Of a stretch of DNA of 64,000 nucleotides, positions 14,477 through 55,738 are shown piece by piece. The position numbers were made by a program, and so were the translations under genes. Position 1 is the stretch's first letter; every line of letters begins with the position of its first letter. Source of the DNA: Moheibacter lacus (lineage in GTDB: Bacteria > Bacteroidota > Bacteroidia > Flavobacteriales > Weeksellaceae); NCBI RefSeq assembly GCF_014042165.1, contig NZ_JACDZE010000001.1, positions 1,138,595-1,202,594 on the forward strand. Direction: 5' to 3'. The notes beneath the pieces were generated by a model. That model saw only the letters and a program-made list of their open reading frames with translations, did no database searches and had not been told where the DNA came from.

Positions 14477-14547
14477 GGTTCCGTGGCCGAGTGGCTAGGC
14501 ACCGGTCTGCAAAACCGTATACAGCGGTTCGAATCCGCTCGGAACCT
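14477..14547 (+). tRNA. tRNA-Cys (GCA anticodon)
   Basis: A complete cloverleaf is visible: acceptor GGTTCCG (14477-14483) with CGGAACC (14540-14546), an anticodon arm CGGT-CTGCAAA-ACCG reading GCA, and a T-arm AGCGG-TTCGAAT-CCGCT. The discriminator base is T, as is usual for tRNA-Cys. CCA is not encoded. Confidence 0.96.
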
Positions 14548-46288: not shown

Positions 46289-47512
46289 ATGAAAGTAAGT
46301 TTTGAATTAAGAAAGGAAAAAATAAACGTAAATGGATTAATTCCCATACAGGTAGTTGTAAGATCTGATGGAAAGCGTTTGCGCAAAAATATAGGAGAAT
46401 CCGTAGTAGAAAAATATTGGAATGGCACCCGAGTTGTTCCCAATTCAAAAAAAGAATCTTATAATCGATTTCAGGAAATAAATGATAAATTAGTTGAGGT
46501 AGAAGAAAGGATTAGGAAAATTTCGCTTTATTTTACTTTGAACAAAATAAAATTTTCTAAAGAACTGTTTCTTGAAAAGTTTGAAGCTAAAGAAGAAATC
46601 GCAGTAGAAGTATTTGACTTTTTTAAATGCTTTGATGAATTTATTGAAGTTGGAAAATTATCTAAATCATACAATACTACAAAGGCTCAAACAACGGTAA
46701 TGAATTTTCTAAAACTATTTAGAGATGAAAAAAATATCAAGATTGACTTCGAATCTATAGATAGTCAATTTTTTGAAGAACTCTCAAGATTTTGCTTTTT
46801 TGAGAAGGAAATTAAAAATAATTATTTTGCGAAAATCATTTCTGTACTCAAAACATTTTTTAGATGGGCAATTAAAAAAAATTATACAAATAATCGAAAT
46901 TTTGAAGAATTTAAAGCATCAGAACATGACATTGACATTGTTTATTTGACATTTGAAGAACTAATGACGCTATATGAGAAGGAGTTCGATACAGACCGAT
47001 TATCTCACGTCCGTGATTTCTATTGCATGGGCTGTTTTACCGGATTACGATTTTCTGACTTATCTAAACTGCATTTAGCCAATATTTCAGAAGACCACAT
47101 TGTGCTTTCCATTCAAAAAACAAAGACACAAAACCATGCCATAAAACTTAATAAATATGCAAAGGCTATCCTGGAAAAATATAAGGGAACAATCTATGAG
47201 CCATTACCTGTAATTTCTTCTCAAAAATTCAATGAATACATTAAAAATTGTTGCGAAATTGCTGAAATTAATCAACCATTCACTACCCATTGGTATGTCG
47301 GAAATAAGAAAAAGACACTAACCCAGCCTAAACATAAATTCATAACCAGCCATACAGCTAGAAAGACATTCATTACCAACTCCTTATTGTTAGGAATGGA
47401 ACCTAAGGCAATTAAGAAAATTGCTAATATTAAGAAAGATGCTGTGTTGGACAAGTACATGAAAGTAACGGAAGCATTCACGGACGAACAAATGGACAAA
47501 GCATGGGGGTAG
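46289..47512 (+). CDS. int: Tyrosine recombinase / integrase
   Basis: A 407-residue Bacteroidota-type phage integrase with an N-terminal arm-binding domain (VSFELRKEKINVNGLIPIQVVVRSDGKRLRKNIGES), a SAM-like core-binding domain (about 105-205) and the catalytic domain. Catalytic residues seen are Arg254 (TGLRFSD), Lys near 278 (IQKTKT), His355-x-x-Arg358 (SHTARKTF) and Tyr390 (VLDKYMKV). The usual second His/Trp before the Tyr is not obvious (ANIKKDAV). It lies 172 bp from the tRNA fragment and should drive integration and excision there. Confidence 0.93.
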   Translation: MKVSFELRKEKINVNGLIPIQVVVRSDGKRLRKNIGESVVEKYWNGTRVVPNSKKESYNRFQEINDKLVEVEERIRKISLYFTLNKIKFSKELFLEKFEAKEEIAVEVFDFFKCFDEFIEVGKLSKSYNTTKAQTTVMNFLKLFRDEKNIKIDFESIDSQFFEELSRFCFFEKEIKNNYFAKIISVLKTFFRWAIKKNYTNNRNFEEFKASEHDIDIVYLTFEELMTLYEKEFDTDRLSHVRDFYCMGCFTGLRFSDLSKLHLANISEDHIVLSIQKTKTQNHAIKLNKYAKAILEKYKGTIYEPLPVISSQKFNEYIKNCCEIAEINQPFTTHWYVGNKKKTLTQPKHKFITSHTARKTFITNSLLLGMEPKAIKKIANIKKDAVLDKYMKVTEAFTDEQMDKAWG

Positions 47513-51764: not shown

Positions 51765-51839
51765 TTCTGCGAAGCTTTATAAAAACGTGTAAAACGCAAA
51801 TATTTTTAGTTGATGGTATAATCTAAATTTTCAGTGATA

Positions 51840-53003
51840 ATGAAAACATCCATTAATTTCAAAGCTGCAAAATCTGATTCTGAAACTCATAATTTCAGAA
51901 AGAAAACTTTGGATTACATCTGCAAAGAACTTACTCCAAAAAATGAATACTGGATGGAGGAAAAAATTGCAGACAGAATTCAGAAAATCGAAGTTTATTG
52001 TAAAGAAAAATCAGGAAGGAAATTACAGAAAAATGCTATGCCGGTACGTGAAGCGGTAGTTGTAATTAAAGAAGATACAAATTTGCAGGATCTTCATCAG
52101 CTCGCTAAAAGATTAGAAGATGAATTGATGATCAGAATATTTCAGATTGCCATTCATAAGGATGAAGGACATTATGATAAAGACACCAAAGAATGGAAGC
52201 CTAATTATCATGCGCATTTGGTTGCTGACTGGCAGGATTTGAAGACCGGAAAAACCTTAAAGCACCAATCTTTTCATTATTCTAAAATGCAGGATCTGGC
52301 AGCAGAATGTTTGGGCATGGAAAGAGGAATCTCAGGCTCTAAATCACGATTGGAAGCCATAGAATTTAAAATTCAGAAAAAAGAGGAAGATTTTAAGGCT
52401 CTGGAAGAAAAGTATAACGAAATGAAATCAGCAATCAATTCTAAAAATTTTGAAGAATTAATTGTTAAGGAATCAGACTTCTTAGGGTTTAAGCATATCA
52501 AAACCGATAAAACTATTGAGAATTACGAAAAAACGTTCAAGGTCTACAATCATAGACTATTGAAAAACAAGACAGAATTAGAATCCAAAACCAAACAGAT
52601 AACTGAACTTCAAGTACAAAATAAAGAACTCAAAAAGGAAGTATCTTTTCTCAAGTACAAAACAAATTCCATATTGACAAACAGCAATATATATTCCGTT
52701 CAAAAAGATAAATATCTGAAAATGGTCATCAATGCCCTTGAAAGAACAATTAAATTTGAACGCTTTAGAAATCCACATTTTAAGCATTTATCTGACTCTC
52801 AGGAAATGATCAAAGAAATGTCCGGAATCTGTAAAAAATTATCCAAAGAAAATAATATTCCAGTGTCTGCATTTGAAGAAATTTTCAAGGATTCAGAAAA
52901 TAGTGTCAGGTTTTTATCTTTATTGCGATTTGGGAATGAAAATCTCAATTATAATGATGAAGATATTCCAATTAAGAAGAGAAAGAGAGGGAGAAGATTG
53001 TAG
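51840..53003 (+). CDS. MOBV-type relaxase / mobilization protein
   Basis: The 387-residue protein should nick oriT and pilot DNA during mobilization. The metal-binding region reads AIHKDEGHYDKDTKEW ... NYHAHLVADW (His106, Asp108-Glu109, His124, His126), the Pre/Mob (MOBV) arrangement. Residues 170-290 are coiled-coil. I use the ATG at 51840; a GTG two codons upstream is possible. No type IV secretion genes are in the window, so the element may be mobilizable rather than self-transmissible, or those genes may lie beyond the edge. Confidence 0.83.
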   Translation: MKTSINFKAAKSDSETHNFRKKTLDYICKELTPKNEYWMEEKIADRIQKIEVYCKEKSGRKLQKNAMPVREAVVVIKEDTNLQDLHQLAKRLEDELMIRIFQIAIHKDEGHYDKDTKEWKPNYHAHLVADWQDLKTGKTLKHQSFHYSKMQDLAAECLGMERGISGSKSRLEAIEFKIQKKEEDFKALEEKYNEMKSAINSKNFEELIVKESDFLGFKHIKTDKTIENYEKTFKVYNHRLLKNKTELESKTKQITELQVQNKELKKEVSFLKYKTNSILTNSNIYSVQKDKYLKMVINALERTIKFERFRNPHFKHLSDSQEMIKEMSGICKKLSKENNIPVSAFEEIFKDSENSVRFLSLLRFGNENLNYNDEDIPIKKRKRGRRL

Positions 53004-53064
53004 CTGTCAGATTGGATATTGACAAGTTCAATTTAATTGAATTAGCACTACCTGCTTTTGACGT

Positions 53065-53160
53065 AAAAAAGAGCCCACGCCGTTGTATATACTTTTAAGT
53101 ATTTAGTGAGTGTTCATGACCTCACCCTGCGGGTTTACAAGCACCCTCGTTATTTTTAAG
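53065..53160 (-). ncRNA. Candidate guide RNA of the dead Cas12f-like protein
   Basis: Directly after the dCas12f-like stop, the minus strand folds into three small hairpins: GGGT/ACCC (53131-53146), GTGAG/CTCAC (53106-53125) and ATACTT/AAGTAT (53089-53102). It then reads TATACAAC, resembling the CAAC ends of Cas12f repeats and TnpB omega-RNAs, followed by GGCGTGGGCTCTTTTTT. I infer a scaffold followed by a short 3' guide and a T-run terminator. No CRISPR array is present. RNA boundaries are inferred. Confidence 0.5.
53070..53082 (-). repeat. Guide-like 13-mer, copy 1
   Basis: Plus-strand AGAGCCCACGCCG, identical to 55230-55242. On the minus strand it is the last GC-rich block of the candidate guide RNA. 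GC-rich 13-mers are rare in this AT-rich region. Confidence 0.85.
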
Positions 53161-54255
53161 CTATCCAATGATCAATTCGATGCCTGCCTTTTCTGCTTTG
53201 TATTTTATTTTGGTCTGCAATTCATAATAACTCCAGTTGCGAAGCACAAATTCCTGTTCTTTTGCAATTCCTATCTTGTCTTCCTGATTTTTAAGAATAA
53301 GCGTGCCTGCTTTTTGCTGGATGCAAAAATCAATAAGCTTCCGGCTATACAGATGAAGTCTATGACTTACATAATGGCTTTCCAGATTTTCTGTTTTATA
53401 CAATGCCTTTTGTTTCCGTTTCGCTCCTTTTCCGGAACGAGAATAGGTGATACCAGTCTGAATTCTCTTTTGTTTTGCCTGAATCGCAAGTCTGCGATAT
53501 AAAAATTCCTCTTTCGAGCCAATATTAATACGTACGTTGTTAGCTTTTACTACAATAGGATGTTCCAGAGAAAGGGAAGCTTCTGCGATGATTTCGGGTT
53601 TTAGCAAGTGCTCTTCTTTTTCAAACTCAAAAACTGCAAGCCAATAAATTTTTCCCGATTTCAGCTGAATCTGGGATGTGCAAAGTTTTATTTCTCCCTT
53701 TAAAAGTCTTTCCATTATCAGGCGTTTATCAGAAAAGTCTTTCCCTAAATACGTTTTAACCGGAATAGCAAACATATTGAAACAAAACGCTTTCTTTTGG
53801 GAATCATACTTCATTTTGCTGATACATCTAACCGGAAGCGGAATGGGAATATCTCTTCTATAGTTTTGCAAAGATTTTACCCCCTGCCAATAATCGGCTT
53901 TATTTTTAGAAAAGGTTGATTGAATAGTATTATTCAAGCTTCCCAGAATGTCAGTGGGAATCTCACCTTTAAATCGGTCGCAAACCATTCGTGCAGTGGT
54001 GCTTGTTTTCGAACGTGTAAATATTCCCATTTCATTTTTGTTTACATCAGCCAGCTTGTATTGAATTTCTTCTGTGAAGTAAAAGAAATCCTTGATCATT
54101 TCCTGAACATAAAGATGGGAAACAATAAAATTTGCTGCACGAAAGCAGCGGTTCTGATAACGGTAGAGTCTCTCCCACATTTCTTTTTTTTCATCGAACG
54201 GAACGTCGATTAACAGCTGAATTTTTCGGGTAAGTGTAATCGTAGATTTTTCCAT
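53161..54255 (-). CDS. Nuclease-dead Cas12f/TnpB-family protein (dCas12f-like), sigma-factor-linked
   Basis: I start the gene at the ATG at 54255 (MEKSTITLTRK), 1 bp after the sigma-factor stop, giving 364 residues. The body matches Cas12f/TnpB: PIPLPVRCISKM, GEIKLCTSQIQLKSGKIYWL, RSGKGAKRKQKALYKTE, and FVLRNWSYYELQTKIKYKAEKAGIEL. All three RuvC catalytic positions are gone: no Asp occurs between residues 177 and 308 (RuvC-I), the RuvC-II Glu site reads LILKNQ, and the chain stops at residue 364 before the zinc ribbon and RuvC-III. It should bind RNA and DNA without cutting. Confidence 0.85.
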   Translation of the reverse strand: MEKSTITLTRKIQLLIDVPFDEKKEMWERLYRYQNRCFRAANFIVSHLYVQEMIKDFFYFTEEIQYKLADVNKNEMGIFTRSKTSTTARMVCDRFKGEIPTDILGSLNNTIQSTFSKNKADYWQGVKSLQNYRRDIPIPLPVRCISKMKYDSQKKAFCFNMFAIPVKTYLGKDFSDKRLIMERLLKGEIKLCTSQIQLKSGKIYWLAVFEFEKEEHLLKPEIIAEASLSLEHPIVVKANNVRINIGSKEEFLYRRLAIQAKQKRIQTGITYSRSGKGAKRKQKALYKTENLESHYVSHRLHLYSRKLIDFCIQQKAGTLILKNQEDKIGIAKEQEFVLRNWSYYELQTKIKYKAEKAGIELIIG

Positions 54256-54256
54256 T

Positions 54257-55072
54257 TCAAATAGATTTTGAAAATGTGTTCTCCTTCTGTAAATACTGAT
54301 ATGCATGGAGGAAATCCCGATGAACTTCCTTTTCAGAAAGTTTGAGTTCTTGTGCAATAACCATGAAAGAGGATTTTTGTTCAAATCTTCTCTTCATAAT
54401 CTCGAGTTGTTGACTGGTTAGTTTGCTTGGCTGTTCTTCATTTTCGGAGGTTCTCTGCTTTGGCTGTTCAAAAGAACTCCTATTAAGAATTTTCCGAAGA
54501 TCATTTATGGCTCTGCTTACCTCATTACTTATACCTGTCACACTGCTTCCCATTGCTTCTGAAATTAATTTGTACTGAAAACCATATTCAAGGCAAAGTT
54601 CAATCAGGTATTTTCTTTTGGGATCAAGTACGCTTAAGACTTTATTAACTTCGTCAAAATTTCTTTGATCAGATTCCTGACGGAGAAGATGTTCCTTATC
54701 TTGCAAAGGATCGTAACCGACAAGATAATCCTGATAATTCTCAAAACGTTCAAGTGAATTAATTAATCGATGAAATTTATTCCTTGGAGCAGTGACATAC
54801 GATATACAATCTCTTTTCATAACAAACCGTAAAAAGCCAAGAATATGATTAGGCGTTTCAATGGTGTCGCGGTGTAGCCAAAGTTTGAGGAATGTATCCT
54901 GAAGAATAGTTTCCACTAAAAAATCATCCTCAAGCACTTGCCTTCCAACCCAGAAAAGAAGTCTTTTATAGCGTAAATGAATATGTTCCAGAGCGATTGG
55001 ATTGCCTTTTTTCAACAGTTCGTACAATTGAAGATCATTCATTGTTCGAGGCAAAGAGTTTGTTCTTTTCAT
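54257..55072 (-). CDS. ECF-type sigma factor with extra C-terminal HTH, partner of dCas12f-like protein
   Basis: A 271-residue sigma-70 family protein. Region 2 spans about 20-92 (NPIALEHIHLRYKRLLFWVG ... ILQDTFLKLWLHRDTI ... LGFLRFVMKRDCISYV) and region 4 about 144-196 (VLDPKRKYLIELCLEYGFQYKLISEAMG ... NEVSRAINDLRKIL). After a polar linker, residues 218-264 (LTSQQLEIMKRRFEQ ... LKLSEKEVHRDFLHAYQYLQ) resemble a second region-4-like HTH not found in ordinary ECF factors. Its stop lies 1 bp before the dCas12f-like start. No anti-sigma gene is adjacent. Confidence 0.85.
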   Translation of the reverse strand: MKRTNSLPRTMNDLQLYELLKKGNPIALEHIHLRYKRLLFWVGRQVLEDDFLVETILQDTFLKLWLHRDTIETPNHILGFLRFVMKRDCISYVTAPRNKFHRLINSLERFENYQDYLVGYDPLQDKEHLLRQESDQRNFDEVNKVLSVLDPKRKYLIELCLEYGFQYKLISEAMGSSVTGISNEVSRAINDLRKILNRSSFEQPKQRTSENEEQPSKLTSQQLEIMKRRFEQKSSFMVIAQELKLSEKEVHRDFLHAYQYLQKENTFSKSI

Positions 55073-55194
55073 AAGCAGTGTATTTTAGCCAATTATAGCT
55101 CGAAGAACTGCTTTGATCAATAAGGTAAATTCTCTACATAAAAACGCTAACTCTACATCTTGTACAATAGAAAAAGCGTGGAACTCAACTTACT

Positions 55195-55302
55195 GCATTA
55201 GAGGCACTGGTATGCCCGTGTACGATAAGAGAGCCCACGCCGCGGTCGTGAGCTAATTTACTTATCTTCTCGTACACATAAAAATTACCAGTTTTCTAAT
55301 GC
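55195..55302. promoter_or_regulatory. 108-bp imperfect palindrome upstream of sigma-dCas12f operon
   Basis: Nested arms pair across the region: GCATTAGA/TCTAATGC (55195-55202, 55295-55302), ACTGGTA/TACCAGT (55206-55212, 55286-55292), GTGTACG/CGTACAC (55218-55224, 55271-55277), ATAAG/CTTAT (55225-55229, 55261-55265) and AGCCCACG/CGTGAGCT (55232-55239, 55247-55254, one mismatch). The apex holds the 13-mer shared with the guide-like RNA. It could be a structured RNA, a regulatory site or a recombination end. Confidence 0.75.
55230..55242 (-). repeat. Guide-like 13-mer, copy 2: possible target site
   Basis: AGAGCCCACGCCG, identical to 53070-53082 and in the same orientation. Read on the minus strand it is 158 bp upstream of the sigma start, oriented toward the gene, and the base just 5' of it is G. 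If the downstream RNA is a guide, this is the only visible match in the window. Confidence 0.7.
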
Positions 55303-55368
55303 GAGATTCTAAGCAATTGCTTCAATATTTTATTAGAATAATTGCATTTACATTATTGCAAATATACT

Positions 55369-55408
55369 AAAACTTTCATGTAATCCATTTGGATTACATG
55401 AAAGTTTT
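55369..55408. promoter_or_regulatory. Perfect 18-bp-arm palindrome before XRE gene
   Basis: AAAACTTTCATGTAATCC (55369-55386) and GGATTACATGAAAGTTTT (55391-55408) are perfect inverted repeats with a four-base spacer. The palindrome lies 22 bp upstream of the XRE regulator start, so it is a likely operator for that protein; as RNA it would also be a strong hairpin. Confidence 0.75.
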
Positions 55409-55430
55409 GATTTTTTCACAAAATTGCATT

Positions 55431-55673
55431 ATGGCTGGGCTCAACGAGAAAGATATATTGCTAAAAAACAAAATTGCTGATAGGATTAAGTTTCTAAGAA
55501 CTAATACTGGCTTGTCACAATCTGAATTTGCTAAAAAATATGAAATTGACAGACAAATATTAAATCGTTGGGAAAGTAAAAGCAATAAAAGAGGGTTGAC
55601 AATCTATACTATAGCGAAATTTTGTGATCTTGTAGGTATTTCTCTAAAGGATTTTTTTGATTTCGACGCATAA
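55431..55673 (+). CDS. XRE-family helix-turn-helix regulator
   Basis: Using the ATG at 55431 the protein has 80 residues and one Cro/cI-type HTH (ADRIKFLRTNTGLSQSEFAKKYEIDRQILNRWES), with NKRGLTIYTIAKFCDLVGISLKDFFDF following. An upstream in-frame ATG lies inside the palindrome and is less likely. It is divergent from the sigma operon and convergent with the TolC gene, so it could regulate either cargo module or itself. Confidence 0.85.
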   Translation: MAGLNEKDILLKNKIADRIKFLRTNTGLSQSEFAKKYEIDRQILNRWESKSNKRGLTIYTIAKFCDLVGISLKDFFDFDA

Positions 55674-55738
55674 GAGAATAGAAAAATTACTCTTGAAAAA
55701 TTTTTAAACAGAGTTTAATAAAAAAGACAGTTGAGGTG

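Follow-up and report, generated by a model that had tools for sequence, protein, structure and literature searches.

A probable RNA-guided sigma factor locus of Moheibacter lacus and its predicted regulon of conserved leaders, including its own

What would a nuclease-dead relative of Cas12f do when it is encoded beside a sigma factor, and to which genes would its guide RNA lead it? We address this question for one locus in a stretch of 64,000 nucleotides (nt) from Moheibacter lacus (assembly GCF_014042165.1, contig NZ_JACDZE010000001.1, positions 1,138,595-1,202,594), hereafter the window; the full assembly measures 2.77 Mb. An earlier note on this DNA, covering positions 53065-55302, had reported an extracytoplasmic function (ECF) sigma gene and a Cas12f/TnpB-family gene 1 bp apart on the same strand and had read them as a dCas12f-sigmaE system; its interval also takes in a guide RNA and most of a target element, both left undescribed there. 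Our analyses place the guide sequence in three copies of one conserved leader, before the sigma-dCas12f operon itself and before two SusC/SusD-like (SusCD) operons. The best reading, which we hold to be probable on the evidence of sequence, is RNA-guided activation of SusCD leaders, with self-activation at this locus. RNA-guided transcription is a recently found form of bacterial gene control, and the locus supplies it with a specific native regulon, predicted to consist of three transcription units, its own among them. The argument depends on the following features.

54257-55072, minus strand: ECF-type sigma factor gene, 271 amino acids (aa), partner of dCas12f (phmmer, TIGR02937, Pfam)
53161-54255, minus strand: nuclease-dead Cas12f (dCas12f) gene, 364 aa (phmmer to PDB 9n9c_A, profile A6, dead motif in 16 homologues)
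53082-53148, minus strand: guide-RNA scaffold (conserved in relatives; model R2, E 7e-18, the window being among its 22 sources)
53070-53081, minus strand: guide GGCGTGGGCTCT, 12 nt, running into a T-run (conserved position behind the scaffold)
55169-55314, minus strand: conserved structured leader element upstream of sigma (model R1, E 9e-36, the window being among its 25 sources; covariation)
55230-55241, minus strand: guide target in the element, also the 3' strand of its helix 5 (12/12 identical to the guide)
55175-55181, minus strand: tail complementary to the target core (terminator-like 3' arm), then T-rich (pairing across 90 distinct elements)

R1 is our model of the leader element, built from 25 copies that include all three elements of the assembly, and R2 a covariance model of the guide-RNA scaffold. 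Relatives came from one scan of species genomes, which gave 79 dCas12f loci (the best 80 of 84 relatives were retained) and, with the window locus, the 80 loci referred to below; wider surveys covered 148 genomes of the family and 296 of the phylum.

The two proteins are of the known dCas12f-sigmaE kind. The best solved relative of dCas12f is PDB 9n9c, 'Nuclease-deactivated Cas12f', matched over its full length (phmmer, E 6e-163), and profile A6 is matched at E 9e-213. Next come the Cas12f nucleases 9nzr and 9nzo (E 2e-41), then further PDB matches at E 2e-18 to 7e-8, including TnpB-type and other Cas12f proteins; the TnpB-type entries are weaker (1e-15 and beyond), and the guided_TnpB model matches at E 4e-15, under its cut-off. 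Although the open reading frame (ORF) was listed from an upstream TTG at 54384, the PDB homologue begins at the residue of the ATG at 54255. In alignment with 9nzr, 'VGVDLGI' at RuvC-I is replaced by 'AEASLSL' (Asp to Ser) and 'AIQMER' at RuvC-II by 'TLILKN' (Glu to Lys), at positions that we take to be the catalytic Asp and Glu, and the protein stops opposite residue 416 of the 508, short of RuvC-III and the zinc ribbon; this bears out the earlier description of a protein that has lost both residues and the RuvC-III/zinc-ribbon end. AEA(S/F)LSL is common to 16 aligned homologues, 61-91% identical, whose C-terminal ends fall within 1-2 residues of the same place, as does that of the PDB chain. 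That chain is identical, letter for letter, to the protein of locus L065, from Allomuricauda taeanensis. An AlphaFold model made in the analysis was poor (predicted local distance difference test, pLDDT, 41).

The sigma protein matches chain C of PDB 9n9q, 'RpoE' (phmmer, E 5e-81), and, all over cut-off, the sigma70-ECF model TIGR02937 (E 2e-17) and Pfam Sigma70_r2, r4 and r4_2. Its gene comes first on the minus strand, with a gap of 1 bp to dCas12f, in agreement with the earlier note, and sigma lies directly upstream on the same strand in 78 of the 80 dCas12f loci; in the remaining two dCas12f stands at a contig edge. Each protein matches a chain of a solved dCas12f-sigma complex, and the scaffold and upstream guide matches described below fit the same reading. 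By membership of its proteins the locus is supported as a dCas12f-sigmaE RNA-guided transcription system, with a function expected from that of the family.

Directly 3' of dCas12f in these loci lies a strongly conserved scaffold, GAGGGTGCTTGTA..CACTCACTAAAT..TATACAAC. In the window its end before the guide reads ACAAC, the guide starts at 53081, and a T-run at 53065-53070, overlapping the last guide position, is the probable end of the guide RNA. R2 finds the scaffold in 33 of the 148 family genomes, namely in all 32 that carry dCas12f (E <= 1e-20) and in one of the 116 others; this one, G075 (L205:2110-2290), is of the same genus as the window and keeps a 30-aa C-terminal remnant of dCas12f, probably as a decayed copy. 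Guides beginning GGCGTGGG or GCGTGGG are present in 67 of the 80 loci (66 in the filtered count, plus L056, which the filter had dropped). Some loci have short guide-RNA arrays behind dCas12f, with three scaffolds each in L032, L037 and L081 and two in L068, L070, L078 and L082; the arrays carry differing guides, the last of which is the core guide in L032 and L037. At L044 (6194-6397) the scaffold is broken just before the guide by sequence like that behind the window's guide.

When the assembly was searched with the guide 12-mer, its first base left free, four places were found: the guide itself and three leaders. One is the leader of the sigma-dCas12f operon, with the target 169 nt before the start of sigma. 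The other two precede operons whose SusC-like products measure 1000 and 991 aa and in which a SusD-like ORF comes next (SusC- and SusD-like proteins being named by appearance and mutual similarity). Target and following gene share a strand in all three cases, and the targets fall within one shared element of about 145 nt. R1 finds just these three elements in the assembly, at E 3e-35 to 3e-31, with 150 of 913 first candidates scored. Protein membership, guide, target sites, orientation and shared element were all computed here. We rejected two 16-bp repeats as a target-site duplication because one is the guide behind its conserved scaffold and the other is part of the conserved element.

Relatives repeat this arrangement in part. 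The element stands before sigma in 58 of the 80 dCas12f loci, and in one more, L053, just at E 0.002; 33 of the 51 sigma-upstream elements in alignment A3 share a run of at least 8 nt with their own guide. In seven loci (L031, L036, L038, L050, L076, L084 and L086) guide and sigma-upstream element disagree at position 7; six of these also have the matching change in their tail, so that the guide match is weakened but the fold preserved. In L071 a partial scaffold is followed by another guide-like sequence, GTGTGGG..ACTTATT, with the same changed letter as the element of that locus. In A. taeanensis the guide is a different one and has no match in the core; its first 10 nt match elsewhere, at a site flanked 5' by a G that lies 190 nt beyond the second element of that genome and ahead of a SusC-like gene.

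The element itself shows strong covariation. Across 93 copies (90 distinct) fitted to R1, 98.7% of cells pair and both partners vary in 23 of the 34 pairs; covariation scores 0.379, compared with 0.128 after shuffling and no more than 0.053 after sliding, and a MAFFT alignment independent of the model still has 14 of the 34 pairs changed on both sides. The tail, 58-64 nt beyond the target, pairs with the same strand as helix 5 does, in 99% of 630 cells from the 90 distinct elements, and the helix 5 and tail pairings are mutually exclusive, as in an attenuator. The terminator-like fold is the less stable by a median of 5.4 kcal/mol, which speaks against termination as the default; a generic terminator scan left the leader tail unflagged, its loop being longer than the limit of that scan. 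Helix 5 is closed by CTTCGG in some copies, and a loop of this type favours RNA over DNA, by an argument set out in a passage of PMC2864571. Among the pairing cells G.T outnumbers A.C by 120 to 15; the counts are 43 and 9 after thinning to 32 sequences, and 16 and 8 (p 0.15, no longer significant) without two wobble columns. We favour an element that would act at the level of RNA rather than DNA. Rfam 15 searched against 52900-55700 at E <= 1 gave two sub-threshold matches, none on the element, and at the gathering score it matched only transfer RNA (tRNA), and not the element, in the window, L089 and L090.

Is this leader a part of the dCas12f system? The leader element INDEPENDENCE from dCas12f: the element is present in 85 of the 148 family genomes and dCas12f in 32, of which 30 carry both. 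In the phylum survey of 296 genomes the element occurs in 32, dCas12f in four and both in three, so that 29 of the 292 genomes without dCas12f carry the element; genomes reached through dCas12f loci all have it (20/20, with 1-8 copies). Twenty element sites (two alike) in dCas12f-negative genomes have a divergent ORF in every case and a SusC-like gene behind in 18, and conservation of the core, GGCGTGGGCTC, is no weaker there (18 of 19 elements compared). We rejected the element as dCas12f-specific, given its presence in these 29 phylum genomes and in 55 of the 116 family genomes without dCas12f. Since the element is present and its core conserved without dCas12f, the leader serves a purpose of its own, and the part of it that the guide uses is the best conserved. 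Orphan guides sought in dCas12f-negative genomes at 37 exact GGCGTGGGCTC sites (20 genomes) were not found: 33 of the sites are in elements (28 of 30 loci by model, five by overlap with element hits) and the other four, outside elements, have no scaffold. A search of viral contigs found four stretches that fit a pattern and no relatives among them.

Before the leader lies what appears to be a separate control unit, in the window composed of the following two features.

55431-55673, plus strand: divergent small Cro/C1-type helix-turn-helix (HTH) gene (HTH_3, E 1.4e-7; ORF listed from 55389, ATG at 55431)
55369-55408, no strand assigned: perfect 19-nt inverted repeat between the element and the HTH gene, probable operator (repeat search)

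A divergent ORF of at least 50 aa starts within 200 nt of the element in 92 of the 93 copies. These ORFs fall into 21 clusters; nine of them, tested in Pfam mostly as 60-aa pieces, gave six with matches to Cro/C1-type HTH families (some below cut-off), one with CENP-B_N, one with DUF7698 and one without a match. An inverted repeat with arms of at least 8 nt is found in the 150 nt before the element in 63 of 93 copies and in 39 of 465 shuffled stretches, the 63 cases not being independent because the copies are related; 41 of the 63 have its centre 75-100 nt ahead of the element. One repeat recurs inside some clusters (7/8 and 6/7 members of two of them), repeats differ between clusters, and in the two largest clusters they are mixed. 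This pattern suggests that exchangeable repressor-operator units precede a constant leader. The genes behind the 93 elements are sigma in 57, SusC in 23 (five with a TlpA-like gene first), TlpA-like genes up to the flank end in two and unclassified in 11; among the last are genes of other kinds, flanks that are short and one case where a sigma-like ORF follows some 1 kb further along. At L100 and L101 the ORFs behind the element are neither sigma nor SusC-like (342 and 261 aa) and are alike in appearance; the leader may have other cargo there. An HTH-element-SusCD module is seen in many genomes that lack dCas12f (L143-L162; compare window positions 55369-55673), and in it differing HTH genes and probable operators seem to be joined to one constant leader. 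A literature search by titles, abstract openings and passages found no description of an HTH-leader module.

In the reading that we prefer, dCas12f would bind the guide RNA encoded just behind its own gene, and the short guide, 11-12 nt before the T-run, would lead it to the core of the structured leader. The sigma partner would then bring RNA polymerase, and transcription in the orientation of the target would begin downstream of it. The regulon predicted for this genome comprises the two SusC/SusD-like uptake operons and the sigma-dCas12f operon, the latter as a positive feedback. For RNA binding, polymerase recruitment and a start at about 46 nt we lean on the solved family and on earlier literature; the primary dCas12f-sigmaE study reportedly describes a 5'-G motif beside the target, a start about 46 nt from it and SusCD targets. 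In the window the start would be expected near 55195, some 46 nt from the target. That position lies between the 5' arm (55241-55235) and the 3' arm (55181-55175) and past the probable operator (55408-55369), and we further infer, on our own account, that such a start would bypass both the operator and the terminator-like pairing. If true, the bypass would explain the guide's use, one conserved site addressing several operons with separate repressors.

Several observations weigh against this reading. Self-matching is not shared by all relatives: of the 51 A3 loci, 17 have a run of under 8 nt in common with their own guide, and in another the guide is unreadable. Eleven of the 80 loci carry guides that do not start with the core, that of L072 varies by one base, and L044 is interrupted and unreadable. 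The element's presence in nearly half of the dCas12f-negative family genomes (55/116) means that it was not made for dCas12f. The base before the target is C when counted from the scaffold end ACAAC, a 5'-G stands next to the target only when reading of the guide begins at its second base, and the invariance of G at the target is also explained by leader pairing. Finally, the A. taeanensis match is weak alone, sites with at most two mismatches numbering 31, against 26 for a reversed control.

A broader proposal is more tentative, and we consider it possible rather than probable: that Bacteroidota possess a general module, absent from Rfam 15, of exchangeable HTH repressor and operator, constant switch-like leader with an alternative, terminator-like fold and, usually, an outer-membrane uptake operon, over which dCas12f-sigmaE would act as a master override. 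With the start inside the leader, beyond the operator and between the two terminator arms, one guide would open separately repressed SusCD operons and the sigma-dCas12f operon together. The locus also ties RNA-guided transcription to a conserved leader found well beyond dCas12f, mostly before nutrient-uptake genes.

Other explanations of the guide match were weighed against activation. It is unlikely, if still worth serious thought, that binding at the leader blocks polymerase arriving from an upstream HTH-controlled promoter, so repressing SusCD and the locus itself as a TldR-like roadblock in which sigma plays a lesser part. The probable operator 5' of the element in many copies makes a promoter upstream of the target likely, with the target in its path, and the protein is nuclease-dead, but sigma has been kept beside dCas12f almost throughout (78/80) and is itself a chain of the solved complex 9n9q. 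We think it improbable that the guide RNA pairs instead with leader RNA, at the tail or the 5' strand of helix 5, and shifts the folds: it is identical in sequence to the strand with which both pair and could take the place of that strand in either pairing, yet the family relatives are DNA-binding Cas12f/TnpB proteins, sigma would be left without a role and the A. taeanensis guide matches outside the element. Equally improbable is the element as a recombination site or mobile cassette joint that exchanges HTH genes and downstream operons, with the guide match as a by-product; a constant element between varied HTH genes (21 clusters) and varied downstream genes would suit it, whereas the stems covary rather than merely persist, and the guide 12-mer meets all three elements and, apart from these, only itself in the assembly. 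A functionless, decayed TnpB/Cas12f relic, as the lost catalytic residues and C-terminal end could imply, was rejected as most improbable, since the ends and many invariant blocks persist in homologues with 61-91% identity and since sigma and guide RNA remain linked.

The surroundings of the locus bear on the earlier suggestion that it is cargo of an integrative element. On the plus strand between 46289 and 53003 lie integrase, VapE-like, primase-like and relaxase-like genes, among them the following.

46289-47512, plus strand: tyrosine integrase gene (Phage_integrase and SAM-like domain above cut-off)
51834-53003, plus strand: relaxase-like gene beside the guide RNA (Relaxase, E 0.014, below cut-off)

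Relatives of the relaxase-like gene occur in the fetched flanks of 17 of the 79 scanned dCas12f loci and those of the primase-like gene in 20. Carriage of the locus as mobile cargo is plausible. A tRNA gene at window positions 14477-14547 is a possible integration site for a mobile element.

It remains to set the locus beside known systems. Flavo-1 and Bacteroid-trp are structured leader RNAs of Bacteroidetes, listed as candidates with Rfam numbers in PMC2864571; like these the leader element is a candidate structured RNA of the same phylum, but both are in Rfam and the element matches no Rfam 15 family. TldR proteins are nuclease-dead, TnpB-like repressors (Wiegand 2024, cited in PMC13418256). 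The window protein shares with them the character of a nuclease-dead RNA-guided regulator. Membership of TldR goes with a closest relationship to TnpB and the lack of a sigma partner; the window protein, in contrast, is nearer to Cas12f nucleases (E 2e-41) than to TnpB-type proteins (1e-15, weaker) and is paired with sigma. The closest system is the dCas12f-sigmaE of A. taeanensis (L065; PDB 9n9c, 9n9m, 9n9o and 9n9q), with which the locus has in common dCas12f over its full length and with the same end, the sigma partner, the gene order and the scaffold. It differs in that the window dCas12f is about two thirds identical, and in that the A. taeanensis guide matches a site behind an element whereas the window guide matches the leader core, also before its own operon. 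Unless already given in the primary dCas12f-sigmaE paper, what is new here is the predicted regulon with self-activation and the HTH-leader-SusCD module; we claim novelty because of the guide's destination, and not for the proteins.

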